A stretch of 64,000 bases of DNA, from contig NZ_KB731324.1 of assembly GCF_000353285.1 (NCBI RefSeq), forward strand, positions 4,544,577 to 4,608,576. The letters run 5' to 3'. This DNA comes from Leptolyngbya boryana PCC 6306. GTDB lineage: Bacteria; Cyanobacteriota; Cyanobacteriia; Leptolyngbyales; Leptolyngbyaceae. The stretch's first letter is position 1; each line of letters starts with the position of its first letter. Of the stretch, positions 40,502-56,581 are shown piece after piece. The position numbers and the translations under genes were made by a program. The notes under the pieces were generated by a model. It was not told the origin of the DNA, did no database searches, and worked only from the letters and a program-made list of their open reading frames with translations.

Positions 40502-40553
40502 GGCAGATAAAGTTCGATCGTGAACAGCAGCAACTTTCAGGTACACTTCATAA

Positions 40554-40568
40554 TGATAATCGTTCTCA
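40554..40568. promoter_or_regulatory. Zur box 1 (cysS / mini-ccmM divergent promoter)
   Basis: TGATAATCGTTCTCA, an imperfect palindrome fitting TGANAAYNRTTNTCA. It lies between cysS (start 40501) and the CcmM-like gene (start 40576), so one site could control both. Confidence 0.85.
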
Positions 40569-40575
40569 TATTAAC

Positions 40576-41523
40576 ATGGACATTCATTCGATTCCCGCTC
40601 CACCCACACCTTGGGCACAAACTCTAATTGAGCCAACCCTTGATCCGAGTGTCTATATCCATCCATTAACAAACGTGATTGGAGACGTGAGAATTGGCAC
40701 ACAGGTTCATATCGCGCCTGGAGTCTCGATTCGGGCAGATGAAGGGATGCCGTTTTACATTGGCTCAAATGTGAATATTCAAGATGGCGCGGTGATTCAC
40801 GGTTTGGAACAGGGGCGGATCACGGGAGAAGATGGTGAATCTTACTCAGTGTGGATTGGTGAGAATGCTTCGATTACTCACATGGCGTTGATTCATGGGC
40901 CTGCTTATGTGGGAAAAGATTGCTTTATTGGCTTCCGCTCTACAGTGTTTAATGCTCGTGTGGGCAATGGCTGCATTGTAATGTCTCATGCGCTGATCGA
41001 GAATGTTCAAATTCCAGCCGGGAGATACATTGCTTCTGGTTCTATCATCACGCATCAGCAACAAGCGGATCGCCTACCAACTGTTCAGGATACAGATTCA
41101 ACATTTGCACGTCATGTGGTGAGTATCAATCAAAAGCTGCGTCAAGGTTATCTCTGTGCTGAAGATAATGCTTGCATTGCTGCAATTCAGAATGAAGTGG
41201 ATGGACAGTCTGAACCAGAAAATGGTGCTCAAAAGCTACGATCGACAACTTTAAATTCTGCAACTTTGAATTCTGCAACATTGGCTTGGGTTCAAGATCA
41301 ATTAGCTCAAGGATTAGAGATTGGAATTGAGCAGGCGGATAATAGACGCTTTCGAGCAAATTCCTGGTCAAATTGTGGTTTGATTAGGACTCGTCATGAA
41401 GGCGATGCGATCGCGACTTTAGAGCAGCTTCTACATCAATATCCACGCCAGTATTTGCGCCTATTTAGCGTTGCCCCAAAGACTAGGCAGCGGGGTAAAA
41501 GTTTAGTGATTCAACAGCCTTAA
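40576..41523 (+). CDS. Short CcmM paralogue: gamma-carbonic anhydrase domain plus one RbcS-like (SSUL) domain
   Basis: 315 residues, against about 540-670 for CcmM with three to five SSUL domains. Residues 1-205 are the left-handed beta-helix carbonic anhydrase: [30 protein letters not shown] and [10 protein letters not shown] supply three metal-ligand histidines (75, 102, 107). Cys194 and Cys200 match, by number, the disulfide that activates the CcmM gamma-CA domain of Thermosynechococcus (from memory of that work). Residues 225-315 are one SSUL domain ([23 protein letters not shown]), with a single Cys instead of the redox pair. It shares a Zur box with cysS. It may be a carboxysome carbonic anhydrase isoform for low zinc; Rubisco or carboxysome binding is inferred from the SSUL domain. 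Confidence 0.9.
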
Positions 41524-41873
41524 ACGCGAAGTCGAACAGGGTTAAAAAAGCAGCTTTTTACCCCTGTGTGACAGGCAACATTTCCCACTTGCTCAACTTG
41601 GAGCAGAAGAGCATCCGCATCGCAATCGTAGTACAATGCTTTGACTTTCTGAATATGTCCTGAAGTTGCACCCTTATGCCACAGTTCAGCGCGAGAACGG
41701 CTCCAGTAGTGTGCTTCTCCTGTCTCTAGCGTTCGCTGGATCGATTCACGGCTCATCCACGCCATCATGAGTACAGAGCTATCTTGATAGTCTTGAGCAA
41801 TGGCTGGAACTAACCCTGCTTCGTTAAATTTGAGGCGTTCTATCCACAGGTAATTTTGATCGATCGTTGTCAT
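41520..41873 (-). CDS. hisI: Phosphoribosyl-AMP cyclohydrolase, stand-alone HisI, Zur-controlled copy
   Basis: 117 residues from the ATG at 41873, which overlaps the upstream cobW-like stop by 4 bp (ATGA). HisI motifs are [37 protein letters not shown] and [15 protein letters not shown], followed by ACHTG and SCFF; the three zinc cysteines are kept. It opens the purine ring of PR-AMP in histidine synthesis. There is no fused HisE. Its position as last gene of a COG0523-folE-COG0523-hisI unit behind Zur box 2 marks it as a zinc-limitation isoform. Its 3' end overlaps the convergent mini-CcmM gene by 4 bp. Confidence 0.93.
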
Positions 41874-42841
41874 CGGGTGAGGCAATTATTCAGGGTTTGC
41901 GTCAGAAATAAAGCATCGAGTTTACGCCCGATTAGAACCATTTCATTTCTAGGCTTGCCATCCCAATCGCTGTCTTCAAGGTGAAATCGCTTTCCACTCA
42001 GTTGAAAAATATGACGGGCTGGACTCTCGGAAAACCAGAGAATGCCTTTGGCGCGAAATACATTTTCAGGAAGTTGATAATCGAGAAATTCCTGGAACTT
42101 TTTGACTGAAAAGGGTCGATCGCTCTCGAAAGCAACCGCCGTGAATCCTTCAATCGATCGCAATTGCCTTGATTGTTCTAAATTCTCTGGAGCCGATTGG
42201 ATTCCTTGATAAAAGCTGTTTTGGGATAGATTCACATCTAAAATGAGTGACAGCGGCAGATACCCTTGTTGAGTTCTTAGAACTCGCGCTTTCTCTTTGA
42301 CATCTCGGATAAAGTCTTCTAGCTCGTTTGCTTGATCTTCTGAAACGAGATCCATTTTGTTGAGAATGATGATATCTCCATAACAGATTTGCTGTAGCGC
42401 GATTGCACTCTCATAGTGGTCAGGTGTAAAGGTTGCAGCATCAACCAGCGTTAAGATCGAATCGAGGCGGGTAAAATCGCGAAGTTCTGTGCTTAAAAAA
42501 GTTAGTGCGATCGGTAACGGATCAGCGAGTCCTGTTGTCTCGACAATGAGATAGTCAATGCGATCGCGTCGTTCTAAAATCGAGTAAACTGCATCTACTA
42601 AATTGCCATTCATCGTACAGCAGATACAGCCATTTGAAAGCTCGATCATATCTTCGTCGATCGAGATAAGTAGCTGACTATCAATATTGATACTGCCAAA
42701 CTCATTGACTAAAACTGCAACTTTGACATCCTGATAGTTCTTCAGAATTTGATTGAGCAGTGTTGTCTTTCCGCTTCCTAAAAAACCTGTAATGATGGTT
42801 ACAGGTAGGCGAGTTTCTGGAATGGACAATTCTTCTGGCAT
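41870..42841 (-). CDS. COG0523 (CobW/ZNG1-like) metallochaperone GTPase
   Basis: 323 residues from the ATG at 42841; the frame stays open to an ATG at 42913 directly after the folE stop, which would add 24. Walker A is TGFLGSGKTTLL, the metal-binding CxCC is NGCICCTMNG, NKMD is the guanine motif and the CobW_C domain is at the C-terminus. No histidine-rich insert. COG0523 proteins use GTP hydrolysis to insert metal into client enzymes. Flanked by folE upstream and hisI downstream (ATGA overlap), both zinc enzymes, it is likely to service one of them. It is about 70% similar by eye to the GTPase at 43.7-44.7 kb. Confidence 0.93.
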   Translation of the reverse strand: MPEELSIPETRLPVTIITGFLGSGKTTLLNQILKNYQDVKVAVLVNEFGSINIDSQLLISIDEDMIELSNGCICCTMNGNLVDAVYSILERRDRIDYLIVETTGLADPLPIALTFLSTELRDFTRLDSILTLVDAATFTPDHYESAIALQQICYGDIIILNKMDLVSEDQANELEDFIRDVKEKARVLRTQQGYLPLSLILDVNLSQNSFYQGIQSAPENLEQSRQLRSIEGFTAVAFESDRPFSVKKFQEFLDYQLPENVFRAKGILWFSESPARHIFQLSGKRFHLEDSDWDGKPRNEMVLIGRKLDALFLTQTLNNCLTR

Positions 42842-42913
42842 TGCAGGCACACTCAAATGATTAGGAAAGAGCAATCCAATCGGCTTAAGGATATGGATTG
42901 CTCGACAAAGCAT

Positions 42914-43570
42914 TTAGTTAAACTTTGGACTATGGCGGATCAAATCCATAAATTCCTGCCGCGTCTTCGCATCATCCGCAAACACACCTTTCATTGCGCT
43001 GGTAACCGTCCATGATCCAGGCTTTTGTACCCCTCTCATGACCATACACATGTGCGATGCTTCGACGACAACTGCAACGCCTTGTGGCTTGAGCAAGCCC
43101 TGAAGTGCATCTGCAATTTGGCTGGTTAATCGCTCTTGAACCTGTAAACGTCGAGCATACATTTCACAAATTCGAGCGATTTTTGACAGTCCGATCACTT
43201 TACCATTGGGAATGTACGCAACATGAGCGCGTCCCAGAATCGGTAAGATGTGATGTTCGCAAGAGCTAAACAGATCGATGTCACGAACTAACACCATCTC
43301 ATTGGCATTCTCGTGAAAGACCGCACCATTGAGCAATTCATCTAGCGATTGATTGTAGCCTTGGGTCAAGAACTTCAAGGCTTTTACAACTCGTTTCGGC
43401 GTATCGCGTAAGCCTTCTCGATCAGGATCTTCTCCCAATCCCAGCAGCAAAGTCCTGACGGCTTGCATCATTTCAGCATCGGAAACAGGTGGCTTTGATT
43501 GAGTCTTAAGCGCAGCAAACGTTTCAGACGAATCGGGCAGGACAAGATCAGAGGAGGATTGTGGGTTCAT
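42914..43570 (-). CDS. folE: GTP cyclohydrolase I (type IA), Zur-controlled copy
   Basis: 218 residues. Type IA motifs: [40 protein letters not shown] (zinc Cys and His), [19 protein letters not shown], and [20 protein letters not shown] (second zinc Cys). It makes dihydroneopterin triphosphate for folate and pterin cofactors. Unlike many Zur regulons that use the zinc-independent FolE2 (type IB), this island carries a FolE that keeps all zinc ligands, next to two COG0523 GTPases. That fits a model in which the chaperone ensures its metallation. It is co-directional with both neighbours (gaps about 90 and 0-70 bp). Confidence 0.95.
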
Positions 43571-43660
43571 GTTGCTATTTCTAGAAGGGTAGACAATCGG
43601 ACATTACGCCAGTTCTGCACTGACGGTTTTCACCTCTAACATGGAGTGTGAAAGCTGAAA

Positions 43661-44698
43661 TTACTGAGCAACTAGCTTAGAAGGAATCGGCTCTAAGCAT
43701 TGATCAAGCTGTTGTCGCAGCTGCTCAGTGTCTAAATTTCGACCAATCAGCACAAGCTGATTCGAGGGAGATTTTTGCCATTCTTCGGTTTGAATGTCGT
43801 ACCGTTTTCCACTCAACTGAAAGATATGTTTCAGATAGCTTTCTTTGAACCAGAGCAATCCTTTTGCACGGAAAATCTCGATCGGTAATTCATCCAGAAA
43901 GCTTTGAAATTTGTGAACCGAAAAAGGTCGATCGCTCTGGTAAGACATTGAAACAAAACCATCATTGGCTAAGTGATTGGAATGGTGGTGATGGTGGTCA
44001 TGATCGTGGTGGTGATGTTCGTGATGTTCGTGATGATGGTGATGTTCGTCCTCATAGGCTTCGGGTTGGAAGTAGCCGACATCCAAAATTAGAGGTAGTG
44101 GAACCTCGCCATACTGAGTCTGTAGAACTCTTGCACCTGTTTTAGTACTACGAATCCAATGATCGAGTTCAGCAACTTTCTCTTGTCCTGCCAAATCTGT
44201 TTTGTTGAGCAGAATGATATCGCCATATGTAATCTGGCTGATTGCAGCTTGACTCTCAAAATGCTCCGGGGTGAATGTCTCTGCATCAACAACCGTCAAA
44301 ATTGAATCGAGATGCGTTAAGTCTCTGAGTTCAGAGCTAACAAAGGTAAGCACGATCGGTAACGGATCAGCTACCCCTGTCGTCTCAATTACCATGTAAT
44401 CAATTCGATCTTCTCGCTCCAAGATCCGATAGACCGCATTGATCAAGTCATCATTGATTGTGCAGCAGATACAGCCGTTGCTCAGTTCCATCATGTCTTC
44501 ATCTAGCGAAACGAGAAGCTGTGAGTCAATGTTGATGTCTCCAAATTCATTGACTAGCACTGCAACTTTGAGATCATCGCGATTTTTCAGGATTTGATTC
44601 AGCAGGGTTGTTTTGCCACTGCCTAAGAATCCGGTGATGATCGTAACGGGCATCCCCCGCTTCGGGATCTCGAGGTGGGATTGAGTTGCTGCGTTCAT
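43661..44698 (-). CDS. COG0523 metallochaperone GTPase with histidine-rich insert
   Basis: 345 residues. Walker A GFLGSGKT (23-30), metal site NGCICCTIND (CICC at 76-79), NKTD (165-168), and a histidine-rich stretch at about 219-242 containing some 18 histidines between the GTPase and CobW_C domains. The insert is a likely zinc-binding reservoir. First gene of the unit behind Zur box 2, followed by folE, a second COG0523 gene and hisI. Close similarity with the GTPase at 41.9-42.8 kb shows a duplication in which only this copy has the His insert. Confidence 0.95.
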   Translation of the reverse strand: MNAATQSHLEIPKRGMPVTIITGFLGSGKTTLLNQILKNRDDLKVAVLVNEFGDINIDSQLLVSLDEDMMELSNGCICCTINDDLINAVYRILEREDRIDYMVIETTGVADPLPIVLTFVSSELRDLTHLDSILTVVDAETFTPEHFESQAAISQITYGDIILLNKTDLAGQEKVAELDHWIRSTKTGARVLQTQYGEVPLPLILDVGYFQPEAYEDEHHHHHEHHEHHHHDHDHHHHHSNHLANDGFVSMSYQSDRPFSVHKFQSFLDELPIEIFRAKGLLWFKESYLKHIFQLSGKRYDIQTEEWQKSPSNQLVLIGRNLDTEQLRQQLDQCLEPIPSKLVAQ

Positions 44699-44713
44699 AG
44701 TATGAGGAGGTTT

Positions 44714-44728
44714 TGAGAACGGTTATCA
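44714..44728 (-). promoter_or_regulatory. Zur box 2 (COG0523-folE-COG0523-hisI unit)
   Basis: TGAGAACGGTTATCA, 15 bp upstream of the His-rich COG0523 start at 44698, in the 53-bp gap after the DUF1636 gene. Confidence 0.85.
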
Positions 44729-44751
44729 TTCTACATTAATTTGAGAGAAAT

Positions 44752-45126
44752 CTACGTCACAGGTGGAATTCTTGCTAAGATGCCTCTTTTCAGAAGGTCT
44801 GGACGATCGCTTCTCGGTACAATGCCGTCAGCACTACGGAAATACTGCTGGCAAAGTTCTCGAATGGCAGGAGCACTTTCAAACGGTGATAAGTCTCCAA
44901 ACATCAACGTCGTTTTACCTGGAGCCGAAAGCGCAACGACACAAGGACGATTACAGGCGCTCAAACATTCCACTTCTCGAATTACAAAGGGTGCATTCAT
45001 CTCCCAAGTTTTAAATTGCTGCTTGAGGTGTTCGAGCAGATGAAATCCGCCACGATGTTTGAGATGTTCTCGCTGGTGCTTGGAAACAGCACACGATCGA
45101 CAAATAAACAGGACATGATCCGTCAT
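44752..45126 (-). CDS. DUF1636 cysteine-containing protein
   Basis: 124 residues. The thioredoxin-like ferredoxin-type DUF1636 pattern is visible: LFICRSCAVS near the N-terminus and ECLSACNRPCVVALSAPGKT in the middle, giving CxxC and CxxxCxxxC spacing for a possible [2Fe-2S] cluster or metal. DUF1636 genes commonly lie beside CobW/COG0523 genes. Here it sits between thrS (90 bp upstream on the same strand) and the His-rich COG0523 gene, so it is probably transcribed from the thrS Zur promoter. Function unknown; a metal- or redox-carrier role with COG0523 is inference. Confidence 0.85.
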   Translation of the reverse strand: MTDHVLFICRSCAVSKHQREHLKHRGGFHLLEHLKQQFKTWEMNAPFVIREVECLSACNRPCVVALSAPGKTTLMFGDLSPFESAPAIRELCQQYFRSADGIVPRSDRPDLLKRGILARIPPVT

Positions 45127-45216
45127 CTAAAGCCTCGTGAAATACAAAACAGTTCGATAGTTTCAGGGATTGAACGAAGAAAGGTTGTCATTGCCTGATG
45201 CCTTTTGATGCAATGG

Positions 45217-47076
45217 TTACAGAGTTGCGTGATTGAAGACGGCTTGCTGGAGTCGATCGCAGAGTTCCGAGAGCGTCAAGGCTCCTAATTCTCCTTTGGG
45301 TCGAGTCCGAATGCTCAGGGTTTGAGACTCAACTTCTTTTTTGCCAACAACCGCGACAACTGGAATTTTTTCAAGTTCAGCCGTGCGAATTTGCTTACCT
45401 AATCGTTCGTTGGTGCGATCGACTTCAGCACGGAATCCAGTTTGCTTAAGTTGCAGCGCGATCGCTTCGGCATAGTCCCGTTGGTCTTGACTGATTGGAA
45501 GTAATCGAACTTGAATCGGTGCAAGCCACAGCGGAAAGTCTCCCGCATAGTTCTCAATGAGAATGCCAAAGAAGCGCTCTAACGATCCGAAGATTGCTCG
45601 GTGAATCATGATCGGACGCTGGCGAGTCCCATCTGCCGCCACATATTCCATCTCAAACCGTTCTGGTAAATTGAAATCAACTTGAATCGTGGAACATTGC
45701 CAACGACGTGCGATCGCATCTTCAATTTTCAAATCGATTTTAGGTCCGTAGAATGCGCCGCCGCCTTCATCGATCACATAGTTCCAACCTTTTCGATCTA
45801 AGGCTTGTTGGAGCGCGATCGTGGCTTTCTCCCAAATCTGATCACTCCCAACCGATTGAGGTGGACGAGTGGAAAGATTGACCTCATAGTTCGAGAAACC
45901 AAAGTCTGACAAAATCTGCTCTGTGAGATTGAGAACGCCGAGAATTTCATCTTCAATCTGTTCCGGCAGACAAAAGATATGCGCATCATCTTGAGTAAAG
46001 CCGCGTACTCGCATCAAACCATGTAACGCCCCTGAACGCTCATATCGATACACAGTTCCAAGCTCTGCCCATCGGATCGGGAACTCTCGGTAGGAATGGA
46101 GTTCATGCTTGTAGGTCAACACATGAAACGGGCAGTTCATGGGCTTAATTTGATACTGCTGTTCTTCGATGTCCATCTGATCAAACATACTGTCACGATA
46201 GAAATCGAAATGACCCGATGTTTTCCAGAGGTCTAGGTTCGCAATGTGCGGAGTGTAGAGCAATTCATAGCCTGCATCAATGTGTGACTGTCTCCAGTAA
46301 TCTTCAATGATTCGACGCATTCTTGCGCCGCGTGGATGCCAGAAGACTAATCCACCGCCTGCATCTTCCTCCAAACTAAACAGCTTCAAGTCTTGTCCGA
46401 GCTTACGATGGTCGCGACGTTTTGCTTCTTCTCGTTGCTGTAAGTAGGCTTGTAGCTGTTCTGGAGTTTCCCAGGCTGTGCCATAAATGCGTTGGAGTTG
46501 TGCTTTGGTTTCATCCCCGCGCCAGTACGCGCCCGCAATGCTTTCTAACGAGATCGCATCGGGATGAATTTCACCTGTAAAGTCTAAATGCGGTCCTGCA
46601 CAGAGATCCCACCAATATTCATCAGGCGGCAGTGCGATCGCATCAATCAGCGAAGGTTCGATCTGAGTTGCACGTCCACTATCAGGATTACCAATAAAGT
46701 AGCGAGTAATCGGTTCTCCAGCAGGAATACGATCGAGGATTTCCAACTTATACGGCTCATTCAACTGCTCAATCTCGGCTCGAATCGAGTCATACCCCAC
46801 CACCTCTCGAATGATGGGAAGATTGGCTCGAATGATTCGCCGCATTTCTGCTTCAATCTGCACCAAATCTTCTGAAGTAAAGGAAATAGCTCGATCAAAG
46901 TCGTAATAGAATCCGGTGTCTGTCCAAGGTCCAATCGTCGCTTTCGCCTCAGGAAACAGCGTTTGAACTGCCATTGCCAAAATGTGAGCACAAGTATGGC
47001 GAATTTTCAGCAATTGTTGCGGATCGCTCTGCTGCCAGGTATTACCGGAGAAGGAGCGAGAAAGTTGGCTGACCAT
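45217..47076 (-). CDS. thrS: Threonyl-tRNA synthetase, Zur-controlled copy
   Basis: 619 residues. It lacks the N-terminal TGS domain but keeps the editing domain (HTCAHILAMAV, with the HxxxH motif, and DLCAGPHLDFTGEI) and the class II catalytic core: MNCPFHVLTYKHELHSYREF, ALHGLMRVRGFTQDDAHIFC, and MIHRAIFGSLERFFGILIE supply the zinc ligands Cys, His and His. The anticodon-binding domain follows. Zur box 3 lies 14 bp upstream, so it is probably the second, zinc-stress ThrRS known from other cyanobacteria. Because the ligands are intact, it should still need zinc, perhaps with higher affinity or COG0523 help. Confidence 0.95.
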   Translation of the reverse strand: MVSQLSRSFSGNTWQQSDPQQLLKIRHTCAHILAMAVQTLFPEAKATIGPWTDTGFYYDFDRAISFTSEDLVQIEAEMRRIIRANLPIIREVVGYDSIRAEIEQLNEPYKLEILDRIPAGEPITRYFIGNPDSGRATQIEPSLIDAIALPPDEYWWDLCAGPHLDFTGEIHPDAISLESIAGAYWRGDETKAQLQRIYGTAWETPEQLQAYLQQREEAKRRDHRKLGQDLKLFSLEEDAGGGLVFWHPRGARMRRIIEDYWRQSHIDAGYELLYTPHIANLDLWKTSGHFDFYRDSMFDQMDIEEQQYQIKPMNCPFHVLTYKHELHSYREFPIRWAELGTVYRYERSGALHGLMRVRGFTQDDAHIFCLPEQIEDEILGVLNLTEQILSDFGFSNYEVNLSTRPPQSVGSDQIWEKATIALQQALDRKGWNYVIDEGGGAFYGPKIDLKIEDAIARRWQCSTIQVDFNLPERFEMEYVAADGTRQRPIMIHRAIFGSLERFFGILIENYAGDFPLWLAPIQVRLLPISQDQRDYAEAIALQLKQTGFRAEVDRTNERLGKQIRTAELEKIPVVAVVGKKEVESQTLSIRTRPKGELGALTLSELCDRLQQAVFNHATL

Positions 47077-47089
47077 AGAAGCAAAATAA

Positions 47090-47104
47090 TGATAATCATT
47101 CTCA
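47090..47104 (-). promoter_or_regulatory. Zur box 3 (thrS promoter)
   Basis: TGATAATCATTCTCA, directly upstream of the thrS ATG (47076). No other gene starts nearby. Confidence 0.85.
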
Positions 47105-47223
47105 TTTTAGCGTAAACTGAGAAATCGGATCAGACATGCAGCAAAGTCATTCATTCTGGGTCTACAGTCTTGAGGAGAAAGCTAATGTGATCGCGCAAAT
47201 CTTCGACCAGTCGTCATATTGCA

Positions 47224-47955
47224 CTACCTTTTGATCTGAAATCCTTTTCCTGAATCATACCGAACGGTGCAAAACTTGAGTGCGTTGGTATTCGGATTGT
47301 AGATCGTGTAAATCGCCTGTCCCGCAGCTCGCCCAACGTTTCCAACTCCAATAATTTTACGCGGATGAAGGCTCGTTGGCTCTGGCTCTGATCGTCGATC
47401 GAGCGTTGTCACTGAAGTCAGCACTCCTCCAGATTCGATCTCGTATTCAAAAGCCAGTCCAGAGCGACCGCAGAAGAGATAGTTTGCATCCATTCGCATG
47501 GCGCGATCGAGCATTTGAATCGGATCAGTCTCAGGGGTTAGCTCATCGCTGACGCTGACTGTACTGCCATGAATCAGTAAGCAATCTAGCTCAAAGATGC
47601 CAAATTCTAGTGATTGTACCCACCGTACTAAATTACGAGGCACAGAATCCCAGAGTTTCTTAGTCATCTGAATGCCATATCGCCCAATTAGCTCGGTTGG
47701 TTCTCCCACACGCCCTAAACCATGCAAAACGAGTAATTGTTCTTCCCACCAACCCTGACAGACTTGTGGGACAAGTTCACCTCGACGTGGAGAAGTCAAT
47801 CGATTAATCAATTTCTCATTATCGGCTCTGGGACTAATCACATCGCCCAACACAAACAAAGCATCAACCCTTTGCCGCTGAATATCTTTTAGAACTGCTT
47901 CGTAGGCGGCAAGATTACCTTCAATACCGCTCAAAATTGCCCAAGATGACATCAT
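47224..47955 (-). CDS. Pseudo-metallophosphoesterase (ligand-depleted calcineurin-like fold)
   Basis: 243 residues. It is clearly a paralogue of the next gene upstream: WAILSGIEGNLAAYEAVLKD, FVLGDVISPRADN, QVCQGWWEEQ, CLLIHGS and YLFCGRSGLAFEY line up with the five metallophosphoesterase motifs. Most metal ligands are gone: SDxHGN is SGIEGN, GNHD is GWWE and GHTH is GRSG; only the GD and HG motifs remain. It is therefore predicted to be catalytically inactive and may bind a ligand or its active paralogue. It starts 4 bp after the upstream stop, the last gene of the operon from Zur box 4. Confidence 0.85.
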   Translation of the reverse strand: MMSSWAILSGIEGNLAAYEAVLKDIQRQRVDALFVLGDVISPRADNEKLINRLTSPRRGELVPQVCQGWWEEQLLVLHGLGRVGEPTELIGRYGIQMTKKLWDSVPRNLVRWVQSLEFGIFELDCLLIHGSTVSVSDELTPETDPIQMLDRAMRMDANYLFCGRSGLAFEYEIESGGVLTSVTTLDRRSEPEPTSLHPRKIIGVGNVGRAAGQAIYTIYNPNTNALKFCTVRYDSGKGFQIKR

Positions 47956-47959
47956 TTAA

Positions 47960-48769
47960 TTATCGCTCACAGATATGAGTCGGATCGTCGGCGCGTTCTG
48001 CAAATTCCATCCCTTTTGAAAGTCTCCAGGCAAAGATGGCAGGCAGTCCTTTTTCGACAATTGCAGCACAGGTTTTTTGGTAGTCATATTCAACTTCTCG
48101 CAGCGCAATTTGATCAGTACTATCGTCGTAAATCACATACGTTGCATTGGGTCTGCCATGTCGAGGCTCACCGACTGAGCCAGCATTAACAATGCGCTTT
48201 AAGGGCGCAGTAAAGCGAATGGATTGATCTTGTTTCGACTGTTGTACTTTGATTTGGAGTTCTCCAGAGTCCAGCGATCGCACATAGGGCACATGCGTAT
48301 GACCGCAAAATAGAATATCGGCTCCGGTTGATAGCACGCGTTCCATCGCCACAAATGCATCAATCTCAGGCAGCAAGTATTCATGATTACTATGCGGGCT
48401 TCCATGGACAAAGCAGAGATTTCCATCCCGTAAAGTATGAGGGAGTTGTGCTAAAAATGCTCTCACTTCTGGATGAATTTCTTGGTTTGTCCATTCATGC
48501 GCCTGTCGTCCTCGTTTTTCAGCGAGTAGAGATGGATAGCTACATTCACAAGCGTTCAAGCCTTCAACGACATCTTCATCCCAACAGCCTTGAACGGTCG
48601 GAATATCTAGAGAGCGAATCATTTCCACAACTGCATTGGGATACGGACCATATCCAACCAAATCACCGAGACAGAACATTCGATCGACGTTTTGATCATC
48701 GATATCTGATAGCACGGCATTCAGCGCCTCAAAGTTTCCATGAATGCAGGATAAAACTGCTGTTCTCAT
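47960..48769 (-). CDS. Metallophosphoesterase-fold protein with cysteine-substituted metal site
   Basis: 269 residues from the ATG at 48769; the longer frame to 48850 runs into the previous gene. The calcineurin-like fold is clear: LSCIHGNFEALNAVL, FCLGDLVGYGPYPNAV, VQGCWDEDV, CFVHGSPHSN and FCGHTHVPYVR. Two metal-binding positions are unusual: the Asp of SDxH is Cys8, and the Asn of GNHD is Cys62 (GCWD). The remaining ligands (His10, Asp36, the HG and GHTH histidines) are kept. This suggests a metal preference different from relatives such as YfcE. It starts 11 bp after the degenerate COG0523-like gene, in the operon from Zur box 4. Substrate unknown. Confidence 0.88.
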   Translation of the reverse strand: MRTAVLSCIHGNFEALNAVLSDIDDQNVDRMFCLGDLVGYGPYPNAVVEMIRSLDIPTVQGCWDEDVVEGLNACECSYPSLLAEKRGRQAHEWTNQEIHPEVRAFLAQLPHTLRDGNLCFVHGSPHSNHEYLLPEIDAFVAMERVLSTGADILFCGHTHVPYVRSLDSGELQIKVQQSKQDQSIRFTAPLKRIVNAGSVGEPRHGRPNATYVIYDDSTDQIALREVEYDYQKTCAAIVEKGLPAIFAWRLSKGMEFAERADDPTHICER

Positions 48770-48780
48770 TGTGTTTTCCT

Positions 48781-49503
48781 CTAAGCAGGGATTTCTAACG
48801 ACTGCCGAATTTGATGTTGATAATATGCCAATGCATCGTCTGCCAAACAACAGTCCTGAAGCGTTTGCTTAATAGCAGTTTGATCAAAGGCTTCACCAAC
48901 GACCTCAATGCCACTAAAGCGATCGGGTCTGCCTTTGAACGATCGCGCAACATTCAATTCGGTGTAGTTCGTTTCATGACCCTGAACATAGTTAAAGTGA
49001 AAGGCTCTACCATCAACGACTTCAAAGATTCCCTTTGCACGTTGAATGGTTCCATACGCGCCTTCGATCAGTTCATCCCACAAGGTATCGAGGCTTGCGG
49101 GATCAAGAACCTGACCGGACAAGTTCGATCGCCAAATTTGTGAACCCTTTGCAGCTTGAATTCCTACGACAATTCGATCTGCCCATCGATGCCATTCTGT
49201 GTCGTTCGTATTGGGAGCCACGATCGCAAGCTTTTGGAAATGCCCTAGCGGAATTGTCAGCGAGTCTAAATCTAACTGAGCGCTAACTTCCAGATAGACT
49301 GGAACCCTCAAAGATAGGAGTTCCGTCAGATCGGAGAACACATTAATGCTGCTCATTTCAGTCGTCAGATACGTTGCATCGATCGCAATGCCATCGCTAC
49401 CAAGCGAACAATACGCGATCGATGAATTCAAACCTTGCTGCTGAATCCAGGTTGTCTTACCTGTTCCAGACGCACCAGCCACGAGAATTACCGGGAAGTC
49501 CAT
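48781..49503 (-). CDS. Degenerate COG0523-like P-loop protein
   Basis: 240 residues from the ATG at 49503. It starts like a COG0523 GTPase (FPVILVAGASGTGKTTWIQQ, Walker A) and ends like a CobW_C domain (GIFEVVDGRAFHFNYVQG and FSGIEVVGEAFDQTAIKQTL). It lacks the CxCC metal motif and an NKxD guanine motif, and it is about 100 residues shorter than true family members. It may be a nucleotide-sensing adaptor rather than a metal carrier. Zur box 4 lies 9 bp upstream, and two metallophosphoesterase-fold genes follow in the same operon. Confidence 0.8.
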   Translation of the reverse strand: MDFPVILVAGASGTGKTTWIQQQGLNSSIAYCSLGSDGIAIDATYLTTEMSSINVFSDLTELLSLRVPVYLEVSAQLDLDSLTIPLGHFQKLAIVAPNTNDTEWHRWADRIVVGIQAAKGSQIWRSNLSGQVLDPASLDTLWDELIEGAYGTIQRAKGIFEVVDGRAFHFNYVQGHETNYTELNVARSFKGRPDRFSGIEVVGEAFDQTAIKQTLQDCCLADDALAYYQHQIRQSLEIPA

Positions 49504-49511
49504 AATTAGAA

Positions 49512-49526
49512 TGAAAATCATTCTCG
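49512..49526 (-). promoter_or_regulatory. Zur box 4 (degenerate COG0523-phosphoesterase operon)
   Basis: TGAAAATCATTCTCG, one of the weaker matches (final G instead of A), 9 bp upstream of the ATG at 49503. Confidence 0.75.
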
Positions 49527-49573
49527 TAAATTATACAGGCTTCTAGCGATTTTGTTCACTCAATCTAAAAAGC

Positions 49574-49969
49574 TTAAGAATTGTTTTGACAAAGCCAGCA
49601 GATTCCAAACAGTTCTAGCGTGTGATAGTACAGTTGGAAGGTTTGAGACTGTCGCCACTGTTGTTCTAATGTTTCAAAGGGGCAAGTTTCTAATGGGGTT
49701 GAAGTGCCACAGCGTAGACAAGTCATAAAGTGCCGATGATCGTCAGCTACAACCGTATAAAGGGCTTCGCCTTGCGGAGTCACTCGACTCTGGACTAACC
49801 CCTCACGCTTGAGCGCTTCTAATGCTCGATAAATGGTTGCTAATCCTAAGGGTTGATCTCGCTGTCTCAGTTCTGCGAAGAGCGTTTGAGCAGAAATCGG
49901 TTGCTGACTCTGTCTCAATACTTCCAAGACTTTGACCTGTCCGCGTGTTTGTCGTGTTTGGGTTGCCAT
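49574..49969 (-). CDS. Fur-family regulator, probable Zur
   Basis: 131 residues from the ATG at 49969; an upstream ATG at 49984 adds five but lies only 5 bp from the Zur box. The Fur-type winged helix is at the N-terminus (LGLATIYRALEALKREGLV recognition helix region). The C-terminal metal and dimer domain has DDHRHF, a first CxxC in MTCLRCGT and a second CxxC in GICWLCQNN, the structural zinc site. Zur box 5 directly upstream indicates autoregulation, and the gene lies inside the zinc island. That makes a Zur assignment more likely than Fur or PerR. Confidence 0.88.
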   Translation of the reverse strand: MATQTRQTRGQVKVLEVLRQSQQPISAQTLFAELRQRDQPLGLATIYRALEALKREGLVQSRVTPQGEALYTVVADDHRHFMTCLRCGTSTPLETCPFETLEQQWRQSQTFQLYYHTLELFGICWLCQNNS

Positions 49970-49988
49970 TGCTTTAGAGCGCATTGCT

Positions 49989-50003
49989 TGATAACCATTA
50001 TCA
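49989..50003 (-). promoter_or_regulatory. Zur box 5 (Fur-family gene promoter)
   Basis: TGATAACCATTATCA, a near-perfect palindrome upstream of the Fur-family gene; implies autoregulation. Confidence 0.85.
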
Positions 50004-50017
50004 TTTTAGTTGATCAA

Positions 50018-51223
50018 TCAAGCGATTTTTCGACCGAGTGCGGTTCTCGGTTTGATCAAAGTTGGAACCATCCGATCGCTGGCTAACATTGCCCCAGAAA
50101 TATTTCGGGCTGTTGGTCCGACTTGCAGTGCTGCTAATCCGCCCATCACATAGAGTTCAGAACTTGCCCATCGCAAGCATGGATCTAACACAGGTAGTCC
50201 GTTCACAATTTGAATTGGATAAGCTTCTAGCATCTCTGCCAACAACGGATCTTGAGTCACATCGAATCGGGTTCCTGTAGCCAACCAGATACGATCGTAT
50301 TCCTGCACTATGCCATCCTCACAGACGACCTTCCAGTGCTGACCGTTCCAACTTGCTTGAGCGATTTGACAGTTAGGATAAAACGTGAGTTTTCCACCAT
50401 GACGGGCACGACGCAGTTGAGTCATCATTGCCGGGGTCATTGATCCGCCATTGCGAGCTTGTTGGATCATCTGCCAGCGAACGAACCAATCAGGTTCCCG
50501 ATAAAAGCCTTTTAAGTGCTTCGGTCTTGTCCAGCCTGGATCAGCGTCAAATAGCTTTTCGTAGAGCGATCGACGTGACATTAAACTTACTTGTGCGCCT
50601 CGATTCACTGCTCCGATCGCTAAGTGTCCGCTCGTTAATCCACCTCCTACAATCAAAATGCGATCTCCAGTTAATTTCAGTAGGCGTAAATCGATTGCCT
50701 TTGAATGGACTAAGCGATCGTCTGGATAAACTGTTGAAATCTGGTTCACCCAACTTGGAACTTGCGTCACAGCACTTCCGGTTGCCATAATGACTCTTCG
50801 TGCTAGAACTGTTCGCCCATCTCGAAGCCATAATCGAAACCGTTGCGCTAAAGGCTCAATTCGCACGATCGAAGCTGAAATTACACACTCTTGTAGCTGC
50901 CAACGCCGAATCACATCCTGGCAAAACGATTCATACAAAGCAGTTCCCGGCAAATCATAGGGCGGAAATAGTTGATTCGGTCGGGACTCTGCAAATCGTC
51001 GCAGTGCAAACGAATCGGGGTCAGGATGATGAGCAGCAGGCGATCGCAAATGCGGAATCTCATACGCTGCAAATTGATGATTCCACTGCTGTATCCAGTT
51101 GCCGCTTGGATCAAACACCCTAAACCGATTTCGCATCTTTTCGCGCTTCTGGAGCAGATGAGCAACGAGCGTAAGAGCTTGCATTCCAGCACCAACGATC
51201 GCGATATCAATTTCCTGGGGCAT
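50018..51223 (-). CDS. FAD/NAD(P)-binding flavoprotein, N-hydroxylase-like
   Basis: 401 residues. FAD site IDIAIVGAGMQALTLVAHLL at the N-terminus, a PHLRSPAAHHPDPDSFALRR segment like the substrate region of flavin N-monooxygenases, NADPH site ILIVGGGLTSGHLAIGAVNR, and ATG motifs (IMATGSAV, IWLATGTRFD) near the end of the second half. The layout resembles lysine/ornithine N-hydroxylases and related reductases, but the substrate cannot be named. It is divergent from hemB, with Zur boxes 6 and 7 between them. A role in metallophore chemistry or in replacing a zinc enzyme is speculation. Confidence 0.85.
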   Translation of the reverse strand: MPQEIDIAIVGAGMQALTLVAHLLQKREKMRNRFRVFDPSGNWIQQWNHQFAAYEIPHLRSPAAHHPDPDSFALRRFAESRPNQLFPPYDLPGTALYESFCQDVIRRWQLQECVISASIVRIEPLAQRFRLWLRDGRTVLARRVIMATGSAVTQVPSWVNQISTVYPDDRLVHSKAIDLRLLKLTGDRILIVGGGLTSGHLAIGAVNRGAQVSLMSRRSLYEKLFDADPGWTRPKHLKGFYREPDWFVRWQMIQQARNGGSMTPAMMTQLRRARHGGKLTFYPNCQIAQASWNGQHWKVVCEDGIVQEYDRIWLATGTRFDVTQDPLLAEMLEAYPIQIVNGLPVLDPCLRWASSELYVMGGLAALQVGPTARNISGAMLASDRMVPTLIKPRTALGRKIA

Positions 51224-51240
51224 GAGAAATACGACGATTT

Positions 51241-51255
51241 AGAGAATGATTATCA
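51241..51255 (-). promoter_or_regulatory. Zur box 6 (flavoprotein promoter)
   Basis: AGAGAATGATTATCA, with one half-site base off the consensus, 17 bp upstream of the flavoprotein start (51223). Confidence 0.75.
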
Positions 51256-51278
51256 TTGTTTCACAAAATATCTCATAA

Positions 51279-51293
51279 TGATAATCGTTGTCG
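51279..51293 (+). promoter_or_regulatory. Zur box 7 (hemB promoter)
   Basis: TGATAATCGTTGTCG, weaker in the right half, 14 bp upstream of the hemB ATG (51308). Confidence 0.75.
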
Positions 51294-51301
51294 TTCTTTA
51301 G

Positions 51302-52300
<999 letters not shown>

Positions 52301-52303
52301 CGT

Positions 52304-52636
52304 ATGGCAGATTCGGAACTGATGACGCGATTATTAAAAGCAATTGATGTTCTCGAACACTTAGAGAGCGCGATGGAAATTGCGCCGACTCAAGAGATTG
52401 AGCAGATTCTACAAGAGGCTTGGCTGAAAGTGAGTCATACTTTTCCTGAAGATTTCAAAGATGCAACTCATTTAGATGCTAGTTCTGAAGGATTGCGGCG
52501 TTATCTGAAAGTACAAGCTTTTTTTCTTGATCCGACTCGGCAGACGATCAGCCCAGAAGAACTAGAACTTTACTATCAAAATCAATCTCTTCCAGCTGAG
52601 GACGCAACAGACTTTTTCTTTCCTGATGAATCGTGA
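52304..52636 (+). CDS. Hypothetical acidic protein linked to hemB
   Basis: 110 residues, not recognised. It is acidic and predicted mostly helical, with no cysteine and one histidine pair region (SHTFPEDF, THLDASSEG). The C-terminus is strongly acidic (PAEDATDFFFPDES). It starts 3 bp after the hemB stop and must be co-transcribed, so it belongs to the same Zur-controlled unit. It could be a small partner or regulator of HemB, but no motif supports this. Confidence 0.7.
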   Translation: MADSELMTRLLKAIDVLEHLESAMEIAPTQEIEQILQEAWLKVSHTFPEDFKDATHLDASSEGLRRYLKVQAFFLDPTRQTISPEELELYYQNQSLPAEDATDFFFPDES

Positions 52637-52800
52637 GCAAGCAAAGTATTTGGTGCGATCTCAAACCGTGTGTCGTATGTTTACAGAATAACCCCCCCGC
52701 CGTGTGAAGACAGAAGCATTGAGCGCAGAGTTTCGATCGTGCTTTGTTGAAATTCAATAAGCCTGCTTGCCTACTCGAACGATCTCTTTAATAATAAGCT

Positions 52801-52815
52801 TGATAACGATTATCA
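52801..52815 (+). promoter_or_regulatory. Zur box 8 (COG0523-WD40 unit)
   Basis: TGATAACGATTATCA, a near-perfect palindrome and the strongest of the set. It lies 14 bp upstream of the ATG at 52830, which shows that longer start choices for that gene (to 52767) are wrong. Confidence 0.9.
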
Positions 52816-52829
52816 TTATAAAGGTTGCG

Positions 52830-53798
52830 ATGGTTACTGAACTAGAAACGGCCGTACCTGTCACCGTCTTGACGGGCTACTTAGGAGCAGGAAAAACAAC
52901 TTTGTTAAACCGCATTCTCACCCACGAACACGGCAAGAAAGTTGCGGTGATTGTGAATGAGTTTGGCGAAGTCGGAATCGATAATCAGCTTGTGATCGAT
53001 ACCGATGAAGAAATTTTTGAGATGAATAATGGCTGTATCTGCTGTACAGTGCGGGGTGATCTAATCCGGATGATTGGCAATCTGATGAAACGGCGTGATC
53101 GCTTTGATCACATTGTCATCGAAACAACTGGTCTAGCTGATCCGGCTCCAGTCATTCAAACCTTTTTCATGGATGAAGATGTGCAATCTTTAACCAGTTT
53201 GGATGCAGTTGTAACGGTTGTAGATGCAAAGCATATTGCACATCATTGGGAGGCAGATGAGGCACAAGAACAAATTGCATTTGCGGATGTGATTTTGCTG
53301 AATAAGATCGATTTAATTTCAGTAGCAGAACTCGATGAGCTTGAAAAGAAGATTCGATCGATGAATGTAATGGCAAAAATTTATCGAACTAGAGATGCTC
53401 AAATCGAGATGGATGCGTTGCTAGGTGTGAAAGCATTTGATCTCGATCGCGCTTTAGAAATCGATCCGAATTTCCTCGGTGAAGATGCTCACGAACATGA
53501 TGAAACAGTGACTTCAGTCGCGATCGTTGAATCTGGTGCACTGGATGGAGAAAAGCTAAATGCCTGGTTGGGTAGATTGTTGCGCTATCAAGGACAAGAT
53601 ATCTTTCGGATGAAAGGAATTCTAAACATTGCAAGCGAAGACAATCGTTTTGTATTTCAAGGGGTGCATATGTTGTTTGATGGTAAGCTCGATCGACCTT
53701 GGAAACCGAATGAGACGCGCAAAAATGAATTAGTCTTTATTGGTCGCAACTTAGATGAAACAGCGTTGAAAGAGGATTTTCGAGCATGTTTAGTGTAA
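52830..53798 (+). CDS. COG0523 metallochaperone GTPase
   Basis: 322 residues from the ATG at 52830, placed just after Zur box 8. Walker A TGYLGAGKTTLLNR, metal site NGCICCTVRGD, IETTGLADPAP (Walker B region), NKID and a CobW_C domain near the C-terminus with MKGILNIA. It belongs to a different subgroup from the two GTPases at 41.9-44.7 kb: the switch region and the C-terminus are more like the cyanobacterial YeiR/CobW type, and there is only a short acidic/His spot (HEHDE). Its last 13 bases overlap the WD40 gene, so the two are translationally coupled. Confidence 0.94.
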   Translation: MVTELETAVPVTVLTGYLGAGKTTLLNRILTHEHGKKVAVIVNEFGEVGIDNQLVIDTDEEIFEMNNGCICCTVRGDLIRMIGNLMKRRDRFDHIVIETTGLADPAPVIQTFFMDEDVQSLTSLDAVVTVVDAKHIAHHWEADEAQEQIAFADVILLNKIDLISVAELDELEKKIRSMNVMAKIYRTRDAQIEMDALLGVKAFDLDRALEIDPNFLGEDAHEHDETVTSVAIVESGALDGEKLNAWLGRLLRYQGQDIFRMKGILNIASEDNRFVFQGVHMLFDGKLDRPWKPNETRKNELVFIGRNLDETALKEDFRACLV

Positions 53799-54862
53799 GT
53801 GCGAAACAGCGATCGCTCTTTGAGTTACGTCATCAGAGTGCGCTATCTGACTATGTGACTGGAATTGCCTGGTCGCCCAATGGCGAAGGGTTAGCAGTGT
53901 GTTCTGCTGCGGGAGAAATCCTCCTCTATTCGATGAAGACTCTTGAATCAGTTGTTCTGCAAGCTGCAACAGGGTACTCGATCGATGGTTTAGCCTTTTC
54001 TCATGATGGGCAATTTCTCGCCGCAGGAGGACAGTCAGGAGAAGTCAATATTTGGCAGTTCAAGCCAAAGCCCGAATTGATTCAGACCTTCAAAAACAAA
54101 TCAGCTTGGATTGATCAACTTCAATGGAGTCCTACTCAGAATGATCTCGCATTCAGTCTAGGCAAAACAGTACAGATTTGGAATGCTGAATCTAGAGAGC
54201 GAGTAACGACACTCTTATTTGGTGATTCTTCAGTCTCTCAAATCGTTTGGCATCCTAGCGGAGAGAGTATCAGTCTCGGTGGTTATCAAGGGATCAAAAT
54301 TTGGATGACAAGCAACTGGGATGATGATCCCTATCATTTGATGGTTCCTTCTGCGAGTGTTGCAGTCGCTTGGTCGCCGAGTGGTCGATATGTGGCATCG
54401 GGAAACTTCGATCGGACAATCACTGTTTTAGAATGGGGAAATCCTGAACCGTGGATGATGAGAGGTTTTCCAGGAAAGATTCGCGACCTGGCTTGGTCAG
54501 ATCAATTCGCTAGCAATGCGCCCTTACTAGCCTCTGCGAGTGTAGAGGGCATTGTGGTCTGGGAAAAGCATGAAGAGGAAGCGATCGGATGGGAAAGCCG
54601 CGTTTTGGGCACTCATGAGGGTGTCGTTCAAGGACTTTGTTTTCAACCGGCTACAATGCTATTAGCTTCAGCTTCTGAAGACGGTTCGGTCATTTTATGG
54701 TGGCAAGCAACTTCAATCGCTCAAGTCTTAGAAGGCGTCTCAGATGGGTTTTCCTGCCTCGCGTGGCATCCTCAAGGGAGCTACCTTGTAGCAGGCGGAG
54801 AACAAGGTGAGCTTCTGATTTGGGGGAAATCTTCGCGAGGGCAAGGATTTAAGCGGCGCTAG
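53786..54862 (+). CDS. WD40 repeat protein coupled to COG0523
   Basis: 358 residues with about seven WD40 blades, each carrying the SPNG/SHDG turn and a terminal W-containing strand (for example AWSPNGEGLAVCSAAGEI, FSHDGQFLAAGGQSGEV, AWSPSGRYVASGNFDRT, ASEDGSVILWW). It lacks a signal peptide and other domains, so a cytosolic beta-propeller. It overlaps the COG0523 gene by 13 bp and thus is made with it under zinc limitation. A propeller is a protein-interaction platform; it may present client apo-enzymes to the GTPase. This is inference. Confidence 0.9.
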   Translation: MFSVSAKQRSLFELRHQSALSDYVTGIAWSPNGEGLAVCSAAGEILLYSMKTLESVVLQAATGYSIDGLAFSHDGQFLAAGGQSGEVNIWQFKPKPELIQTFKNKSAWIDQLQWSPTQNDLAFSLGKTVQIWNAESRERVTTLLFGDSSVSQIVWHPSGESISLGGYQGIKIWMTSNWDDDPYHLMVPSASVAVAWSPSGRYVASGNFDRTITVLEWGNPEPWMMRGFPGKIRDLAWSDQFASNAPLLASASVEGIVVWEKHEEEAIGWESRVLGTHEGVVQGLCFQPATMLLASASEDGSVILWWQATSIAQVLEGVSDGFSCLAWHPQGSYLVAGGEQGELLIWGKSSRGQGFKRR

Positions 54863-54897
54863 CGACGATTGAAGCTGAACAGCAGCGTGTTTTCATT

Positions 54898-55755
54898 CTA
54901 ACGAAATCGTTGTGATAAAGGATTTTTAGTCCGGGTGAGAATGCCCTGGGTGGGGCTGAATAGTAGCGATAGAATGAATAGGGTCGATGAAACGAGCACG
55001 ATCGCAGGTCCCGATGGCAGATTGTAATAGTAGCTGAGATAGATTCCTGTGATACTAGAGAAAACTCCGATCACTGAGCCTAATATCATCATATGATGGA
55101 GTTCTTTGACTAGTAAGTAAGCACTCAAAGCGGGACCGACTAGCATCGAAATGACTAAAATTACGCCGACCGCCTTCATACTGACAATGATTGTAAGTGT
55201 AACGGCTGACATAAATGCAAAGTAAATGAGATTGATTGGGAGTCCAATTGCTTGAGCGCCCGTCTTATCAAACGTATAGAACAGCATTTCCTTATAAGCC
55301 AATCGAACGACAAGCAGAATGATCAAAGTAACCATTAAAGTCCGTTGGATATCTGCACCCGTTACACCGAGAATATCACCAAACAAAAAGCTATCTAGAT
55401 CGAGCTTATTTTTTAGAACTGTAATCAGCGTCACACCAAGCGCGAAGAAAGACGAGAAAGTTAACGCCATGGCTGCATCAGCTTTTACACGACTTTGAGA
55501 TCGAATCCAAGCAATCAAAGACGCACCTAAGATTCCAGCACCGAATGCCCCAATCAAAATATCAATCCCCAAAAAGAACGAAATCGATAGTCCTGGTAGC
55601 ACGCAATGCGCGACCACATCCCCAAACAGTGCCATTCGTTGCACAATGAGGTAGCTTCCGACCACTGGGCAGAGTATACCGACTAAAAGCCCGATTGCTA
55701 GAGCATTTCGCATAAACTCAAATCCAAGTGGCTCTGTCAGTATCTGTAGCATCAT
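54898..55755 (-). CDS. znuB: Zinc ABC transporter permease
   Basis: 285 residues, eight to nine hydrophobic segments. ABC-3 family landmarks are VGSYLIVQRMALFGDVVAHC, SRVKADAAMALTFSSFFALG, DTLFGDILG-like SFLFGDILGVT and KAVGVILVISMLVGPALSAY. It forms the inner-membrane channel for zinc with ZnuC and ZnuA. It starts 5 bp after znuC and is the second gene of the unit behind Zur box 9. Clustering with znuA and Zur boxes makes zinc rather than manganese the likely substrate. Confidence 0.93.
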   Translation of the reverse strand: MMLQILTEPLGFEFMRNALAIGLLVGILCPVVGSYLIVQRMALFGDVVAHCVLPGLSISFFLGIDILIGAFGAGILGASLIAWIRSQSRVKADAAMALTFSSFFALGVTLITVLKNKLDLDSFLFGDILGVTGADIQRTLMVTLIILLVVRLAYKEMLFYTFDKTGAQAIGLPINLIYFAFMSAVTLTIIVSMKAVGVILVISMLVGPALSAYLLVKELHHMMILGSVIGVFSSITGIYLSYYYNLPSGPAIVLVSSTLFILSLLFSPTQGILTRTKNPLSQRFR

Positions 55756-55760
55756 TTACC

Positions 55761-56507: not shown

Positions 56508-56527
56508 TCATTTAGATTTGAGTTAAG

Positions 56528-56542
56528 TGAGAACGATTATCA
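56528..56542. promoter_or_regulatory. Zur box 9 (znuCB / znuA divergent promoter)
   Basis: TGAGAACGATTATCA between znuC (start 56507) and znuA (start 56582); one site could repress both units. Confidence 0.88.
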
Positions 56543-56581
56543 TTGTAGAGTCAAGATGTTCACTTTAAATCTTAAAAAAGT

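Follow-up and report, generated by a model that had tools for sequence, protein, structure and literature searches.

The stretch of DNA analysed here, 64,000 nucleotides of Leptolyngbya boryana PCC 6306 (contig NZ_KB731324.1, positions 4,544,577 to 4,608,576; hereafter the window) within a cyanobacterial genome of 7.26 Mb, carries three neighbouring genes, which we call ploop, MPE-C and MPE-D. We propose, tentatively, that this trio is a metal-handling unit of zinc starvation, namely a split metallochaperone with its thiol site on MPE-C. Near-obligate co-occurrence of the genes, conserved gene order, Zur-like sites and conserved substitutions are read directly from the sequences. We further infer that the three proteins form a complex handling a metal ion, a complex that co-occurrence and overlapping frames only suggest.

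A three-gene unit that travels together

All three genes lie on the minus strand. ploop (48781–49503) encodes a shortened NTPase-like protein of 240 amino acids, apparently G3E/COG0523-derived, in which Walker A and the CobW_C domain are kept and the CxCC and NKxD motifs are absent. MPE-C (47960–48769) encodes a Metallophos_2 protein of 269 amino acids, with a Car1-type CxC (Cys74, Cys76) and with Cys8, Cys62 and Trp63 in its metal site. MPE-D (47224–47955) encodes a degenerate yet conserved protein of the metallophosphoesterase fold, 243 amino acids long (GWWEEQ, His129, Arg164). The original prediction, made from this sequence alone, described a three-gene run with gaps of 11 bp (ploop/MPE-C) and 4 bp (MPE-C/MPE-D), and the coordinates of the open reading frames (ORFs) agree with it.

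Among 386 genomes of the phylum, a set that includes many of another class (family f31), MPE-C was found in 92, counted at 200 bits or more and including a partial match in G203 and at least two broken genes (G385 and G326). MPE-D, counted at E of 1e-23 or better, accompanies it in 92/92 of these genomes, weak matches in G109, G119, G170 and G207 being excluded, and ploop does so in 91/92; three genomes had pieces of MPE-D but no MPE-C, and four had ploop but no MPE-C. In nearly all loci examined, the three genes follow one another in the same order and on one strand, with a 4-nt overlap between ploop and MPE-C at 47 of 89 loci and an MPE-D start within 100 bp at 69 of the 89. Two complete copies of the trio lie on two contigs of one genome (L122 and L133 of G064), one copy matching a named plasmid, and the trio is also borne by plasmid A of Trichormus variabilis and by a plasmid of Picosynechococcus PCC 7117. 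The trio is accessory and patchily distributed, yet its parts travel together. Viral contigs scanned for MPE-C yielded no confirmed relative and gave no sign of phage carriage.

Since both the substitutions and the gene order are conserved, chance can be ruled out as their source. An oddity specific to the window is likewise rejected, given the co-occurrence across genomes and the residues kept in 156 distinct MPE-C sequences. The original prediction treated the genes as one operon, suggested checking their order across cyanobacteria, and named two outcomes that would speak against it: substitutions absent from orthologues, or genes that do not co-occur. Order and strand proved to be kept and, as the substitutions are conserved and the genes do co-occur, neither outcome was found.

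Putative Zur sites

A Zur/Fur-type box lies upstream of ploop (49512–49526, no strand assigned) and matches 11 of the 14 fixed bases of the consensus TGATAATNATTATCA. The boxes of Fur-family regulators look alike, and it is because zinc genes surround this one that we assign it to Zur. A promoter-like sequence (TGAACA-17-TATAAT, 49558–49530, minus strand) has its −10 element three bases ahead of the box; promoter and terminator scans of the window were no richer than shuffles. Over the whole window, 16 box matches with at most three mismatches (several of them overlapping pairs) were obtained versus 4.4 expected, and 16 was reached in 0 of 100 shuffles.

The survey was extended to the 90 loci having a ploop ORF. 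ORF starts were taken as the first ATG, GTG or TTG, hence a search range running from −300 to +90 or +120. A site of at least 11/14 stands at ploop itself in 59 of the 90 loci (five in the reversed control), and at ploop or along its same-strand upstream chain in 74 (6 reversed, 10.0 in shuffles); at 12/14 or better, ploop or its upstream chain has a site at 53 loci, versus 1 reversed and 1.2 shuffled. One scan counted 60 own boxes where two others counted 59, because the search ranges differ. Copies of ploop that lack an own site are often downstream of COG0523, folE or hisI in one chain. A Zur-type box, as initially predicted ahead of the operon, is seen in the window, and Zur-like sites precede ploop or its chain at the 74 loci. 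Excerpts from Haas et al. (2009, PMC2770081) note that putative Zur sites precede COG0523 genes of Prochlorococcus marinus, Nostoc PCC 7120 and Cyanothece species; these genes may include ploop.

MPE-C and the arsenic-operon proteins

By profile (Metallophos_2, PF12850, 5.2e-20, above cut-off) and by homology, MPE-C belongs to the metallophosphoesterase superfamily, with 3rqz as its closest solved sequence (1.1e-31). The full set of D-x-H, GD, GNHD and GHxH motifs is not present: MPE-C reads SCIHG and GCWDED where aligned relatives read SD(I/V)H and GN(H/Y/T)D. Our collection comprised 172 MPE-C sequences from two sources with shared genomes, of which 156 are distinct, L187, L188 and three outgroup loci being left out. 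Across these 156, Asp8 has become Cys in 150, Asn has become Cys and His has become Trp in all, and the rest of the canonical set is kept; indeed five of the seven ligands are unchanged (His10, Asp36, His122, His157, His159) and invariant in 156/156, as are Cys62, Trp63, Cys74, Cys76, Cys155 and Cys267. Cys33 is found in 153 and Cys234 in 155. The replacement of Asp and Asn by Cys8 and Cys62, first noticed in the window, therefore extends to the orthologues. Trp63, the additional conserved cysteines (33, 74, 76, 155, 234, 267) and the arsenic-operon relatives described below were no part of the original prediction. In this fold, Asp8 and Asn62 each ligate one of the two metals and the GNHD His usually protonates the leaving group; we infer that each metal site of MPE-C gained one thiolate. 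Cys155, and Cys33 in two of three cases, are present in outgroup proteins too and are thus not special to the trio. The MPE-C proteins with Asp8 (L242, L251, L255, L257, L261, L264) retain Cys62, Trp63 and the CxC, a natural partial reversal.

Beyond cyanobacteria, the best plasmid matches of MPE-C came from Bacteroidota, Paraclostridium and Rubrobacter, and arsenic genes adjoin the relative at each of the nine loci of this kind that were inspected (Adhaeribacter, Pedobacter, two of Rubrobacter, Paraclostridium, Mucilaginibacter, Flammeovirga, Hymenobacter and Pontibacter). Eight of these nine proteins have GNYD and CGC, that of Flammeovirga having neither; the CGC of four aligned relatives sits at Cys74-x-Cys76 of MPE-C, and the Adhaeribacter protein is 38% identical to MPE-C. 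No arsenic genes were found within 2.5–3 kb at more distant plasmid loci (Rhodobacter, Halapricum, Haladaptatus, Thalassospira). The enzyme Car1 is reported to combine a binuclear metal centre and weak phosphatase activity with a CxC cycle coupled to thioredoxin. An arsenic-operon protein of this kind is approximately 40% identical to Car1, the As(V) reductase of Rufibacter tibetensis, and arsenate reduction by Car1 requires Cys74 and Cys76, according to excerpts from PMC12124457, which cites Shen et al. (2024, 10.1111/mmi.15289) for Car1. The Car1-type Cys74/Cys76 pair is present in 156/156 MPE-C sequences, in a numbering that follows the excerpted PMC12124457 rather than an alignment with the Rufibacter sequence itself.

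Of the 17 gene clusters recurring in at least five of the 92 trio loci, none was recognized as an arsenic gene (one cluster having no Pfam match), and the MPE-C of the trio does not share the arsenic-operon location that marks a Car1-type reductase. Judged by similarity ranking and the shared CxC, MPE-C nevertheless seems to derive from the redox-active branch and not from an ordinary phosphatase; the tree described below does not settle this origin.

Several observations on these relatives can be added. The arsenic operons of Pedobacter (L286, 2227–3738) and Mucilaginibacter (L300, 2501–3993) contain tandem metallophosphoesterases, one with CxC and GNYD and the other with GNHD but no CxC, which parallel the MPE-C/MPE-D pair. 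A cyanobacterial Car1-like protein (L298, approx. 1285–2292, genome G170) shows GNYD and CGC with a broken DxH motif, and in Halapricum (L303, 1548–3139) the metallophosphoesterase gene overlaps an ADP-ribosylglycohydrolase gene.

A pseudoenzyme twin

MPE-D reads SGIEG, GWWEEQ, IHGS and CGRSG, and only two of the seven ligand positions are left (Asp38, His129), consistent with the original prediction that the last protein has lost nearly all ligands. Decay of the gene is rejected, as Asp38, Trp70, His129 and Arg164 are kept in 86–88 of 88 sequences; Gly10, Trp70, Glu71 and Arg164 are kept in 86/88. MPE-D is, on its sequence, a conserved pseudoenzyme. The Pfam Metallophos families recognize none of 61 MPE-D sequences at E ≤ 0.01, whereas the comparison of the MPE-C and MPE-D profiles (hhalign) gave 99.9%. 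The AlphaFold2 model of MPE-D (predicted local distance difference test, pLDDT, 89.8) matches 2gju (Z 23.7, root-mean-square deviation (rmsd) 3.0, 207 residues aligned) and the Ap4A hydrolase SapH (3qfm/3qfn; Z 22.1, rmsd 2.8, 206 aligned); 3rqz and SapH are among its closest folds, the absence of a fold from such match lists carrying no information. In a tree of 48 rows drawn from one search, MPE-C and MPE-D stand together, apart from 18 other rows, with support of 99/96. This grouping and the shared Trp63/Trp70 suggest that both descend from one duplication, with the uncertainty that long branches bring.

The shortened NTPase-like protein

Gly15 and Lys16 of ploop are invariant in 65/65 members, and 144 of the 162 ORFs with at least 220 amino acids show the Walker A pattern. 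By contrast, neither the CxCC metal-binding motif nor, in the first 150 residues, the NKxD guanine-recognition motif is present in any of these 162. As it lacks these two defining motifs, ploop is not filed as a COG0523 member, although it looks like a descendant of the COG0523 GTPases: CobW_C is detected in 60/65 members at E ≤ 0.01. PF02492 is detected in 4/65 (best 0.0011), and hhalign to one canonical COG0523 protein is weak (55.6%). A COG0523-derived P-loop partner, as in the original prediction, is supported. Among solved structures, the ploop profile had no match at E ≤ 0.01. In the predicted structure (pLDDT 92.8), residues 1–116 resemble the nucleotide domains of the SRP/G3E group (FtsY, Z 11.4, rmsd 2.3, 115 aligned; HypB, Z 9.6, rmsd 2.6, 111; UreG, Z 9.3, rmsd 2.8, 112), and residues 121–220 resemble the C-terminal domain of YjiA (224–318; Z 9.9, rmsd 2.2, 93 aligned). 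Zn(II)-bound YjiA is also the top Foldseek match (E 2.8e-7), with a poor superposition over the whole length (TM 0.33, rmsd 16.4).

Genomic surroundings

In the window, the trio sits inside a zinc-response island (39050–57565) comprising cysS, hisI, folE, three canonical COG0523 genes, thrS, a DUF1636 gene, a Fur-family gene, genes for a FAD/NAD protein and a WD40 protein, hemB, and znuA with the adjoining ABC permease and ATPase. The Fur-family regulator (49574–49984, minus strand; PF01475, 1.4e-19) is the next gene upstream of ploop and is probably Zur, a name given as probable because no NCBIfam equivalog reached its cut-off; the box scan places its own box at 49989–50003 (no strand assigned). 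On the other side, a Zur-type box with one mismatch (47090–47104, no strand assigned) lies between MPE-D and thrS (45217–47076) and forms the downstream boundary of the unit. Window positions 36000–62000 contain neither a tRNA nor an Rfam match that reaches its gathering score.

Neighbours were counted over approximately 5 kb on each side among ORFs of at least 80 amino acids, some contigs being shorter. Recurring at the 92 trio loci are genes of the zinc response, namely canonical COG0523 (37 loci), folE (33), thrS (18), hemB (15) and hisI (13), with folE directly upstream of ploop in 13 loci and hisI in nine. Twenty-five loci come from family f19, which we take to be picocyanobacteria, with genomes of 1.6–2.9 Mb; almost no neighbour recurs there, and the trio stands nearly alone.

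Other genes of these surroundings deserve mention. The WD40-repeat protein of the island (53786–54862, plus strand) belongs to a cluster that recurs in 8/92 trio loci. At 40576–41523 (plus strand), behind a Zur-type box (40554–40568), is encoded a protein of hexapeptide repeats and one RuBisCO-small-subunit-like domain, similar to a short CcmM/gamma-carbonic anhydrase, which is possibly a zinc-starvation carbonic anhydrase or a carboxysome paralogue. Finally, a MerR–CbiC fusion (precorrin-8X methylmutase and MerR helix-turn-helix), an arrangement as in cobalt-efflux regulators, lies near the trio in 7/92 loci (e.g. L139, 6824–7885, minus strand).

Discussion

If the trio is a split metallochaperone, its operation could be as follows. 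Zur would leave its box in zinc starvation, and ploop, MPE-C and MPE-D would be made together. ploop, having lost CxCC and NKxD and kept Walker A and CobW_C, would obtain its thiol site in trans from MPE-C, which may bind the metal at the centre altered by Cys8 and Cys62, with Trp in place of the general-acid His and with the CxC of Cys74/Cys76 kept. MPE-D could act as a pseudoenzyme partner or lid, and ploop, by binding or hydrolysing NTP and perhaps together with redox of the CxC, would load the metal onto a client or release it. A more specific version, which we consider somewhat unlikely, is that a phosphoesterase fold became a thiolate carrier by way of an arsenic-redox-type ancestor, the di-metal site and the CxC moving zinc or another thiophilic metal through a redox step, with the COG0523-derived NTPase driving and the pseudoenzyme twin scaffolding.

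Several points weigh against a zinc metallochaperone. The complex, its bound metal and its activity are predictions. The arsenic-operon relatives share the CxC, and descriptions of it there are of a redox-active pair and not of a zinc ligand; moreover, residue 8 is Asp in 6/156 MPE-C (from the Crocosphaera/Cyanothece group or an isolate related to it), so that this thiol is dispensable. The distribution is restricted: in a sample of 291 Cyanophyceae genomes, which overlaps the 386-genome set and was used for MPE-C only, the gene was found at E ≤ 1e-40 in 100 genomes (62 of 130 genera), and it is present in 0/7 further genomes from the genus to which the window belongs. Regulation is not uniform either, as 16/90 loci have no site at 11/14. 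In a matching plasmid cluster of Synechococcus PCC 7002, a single strain whose gene numbers were matched to the trio by position only, excerpts from PMC4628125 report that the GTPase-like gene is up in a zur mutant and with TPEN, but that a phosphoesterase gene and one other gene are not; this RNA-seq fits Zur control of the trio only partly. Similarly, the eight Zur-responsive genes of strain WH8102, six of which form the synw0968–0973 cluster around znu, include no obvious trio members in excerpts from PMC9337993, the presence of the trio in WH8102 not being established.

Alternatively, MPE-C may be a Car1-type redox enzyme in which Cys74 attacks, Cys76 resolves and thioredoxin recycles, with ploop and MPE-D regulating or feeding it; in zinc-starved cells its substrate would not be arsenate but perhaps another oxyanion or the oxidized thiols of zinc proteins. 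This agrees with the finding that the nearest non-cyanobacterial relatives found are arsenic-operon proteins, with the exact alignment of the CxC and the Car1 resemblance reported in the excerpted PMC12124457, and with the GNYD of these relatives, whereby the GNHD His is missing there as well. It is at odds with the zinc-type box and with the lack of arsenic genes among recurrent neighbours, while Cys8, Cys62 and the two partners are without counterpart in the nine Car1-type loci, and we regard it as unlikely. The original prediction preferred an active/inactive phosphatase pair, for example a zinc- or nucleotide-sensing phosphatase. Such a pair might act on a nucleotide or pterin, clearing for instance what the neighbouring FolE makes or a zinc-stress alarmone. 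The inactive half is supported by the appearance of MPE-D; the active half is doubtful since MPE-C has no general-acid His in any of the 156 sequences and is closest to the Car1-type redox group. The Metallophos_2 match, the five unchanged ligands, the proximity of the MPE-D fold to SapH and the frequency of folE among the neighbours argue for such a pair; two ligands replaced by Cys and the absence of folE within approximately 5 kb in all 25 family f19 loci argue the other way, and it appears improbable.

Two further explanations are less probable still. The trio could serve a single zinc enzyme as its dedicated activator, the simplest candidate being the adjoining FolE or HisI paralogue, as ZagA serves FolE in Bacillus. 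The placement of folE and hisI directly upstream of ploop would suit this role, yet many loci, including all those of family f19, have neither FolE nor HisI within approximately 5 kb, which makes it quite improbable. Least probable of all is a signalling device whose thiolate site on MPE-C senses zinc and whose state is relayed to a target via ploop and the pseudoenzyme: Zur-type control and near-obligate partners are compatible with it, but Pfam reveals no output domain, be it DNA-binding, kinase or another, in the three window proteins, and zinc sensing is already done by Zur.

The folds and the regulon of the trio are already known. Paper searches, which cover open-licence PMC papers only, turned up no account of the trio other than a cluster phosphoesterase mentioned in passing in excerpts from PMC4628125. 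The trio may represent a metal-handling machine of a new kind, used when zinc is scarce. Zinc shapes how marine and freshwater cyanobacteria live, and the trio is retained even in family f19 genomes of about 1.6–1.9 Mb, where few accessory genes survive. If our proposal is correct, a natural split system, with NTPase and thiol site on separate proteins, would let zinc movement by COG0523 proteins be tested piece by piece, and a phosphoesterase scaffold would have passed from hydrolysis via arsenic-type redox chemistry to metal handling.

Comparison with known systems

In the window, the trio lies among genes of the Zur zinc-sparing set of cyanobacteria (hemB2, thrS2, folE, COG0523, znuABC) and shares their type of box, but it is neither a zinc-enzyme paralogue nor a transporter. 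Like the COG0523/G3E proteins (YjiA, ZigA, ZagA, CobW), ploop possesses Walker A, a G3E/SRP-like nucleotide domain, CobW_C and a zinc-linked context, whereas its G domain is about 60 residues shorter (116 versus approximately 176 in the COG0523 of the window itself), it has no CxCC, NKxD or His-rich stretch, and its partners are metallophosphoesterases. MPE-C has the fold family of the Car1-type proteins, their CxC at 74/76, their missing GNHD His and their kept His/Asp ligands, but differs by the exchanges Asp8Cys, Asn62Cys and Tyr63Trp and by the extra Cys234 and Cys267; moreover, the trio has a Zur-type box, two near-obligate partners and no recurrent ars genes nearby. In the alignment, Sphaerobacter 3rqz differs from MPE-C in having the DxH Asp and GNHD and no CxC; 3rqz and SapH are not known to act with such partners. 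MPE-D, finally, which retains the fold with most ligands lost, recalls the VPS29-like pseudo-metallophosphoesterases; VPS29 is among its fold matches (Z 14.9, rmsd 3.4, 158 aligned) and has a scaffold role, and its relation to MPE-D is one of fold only.

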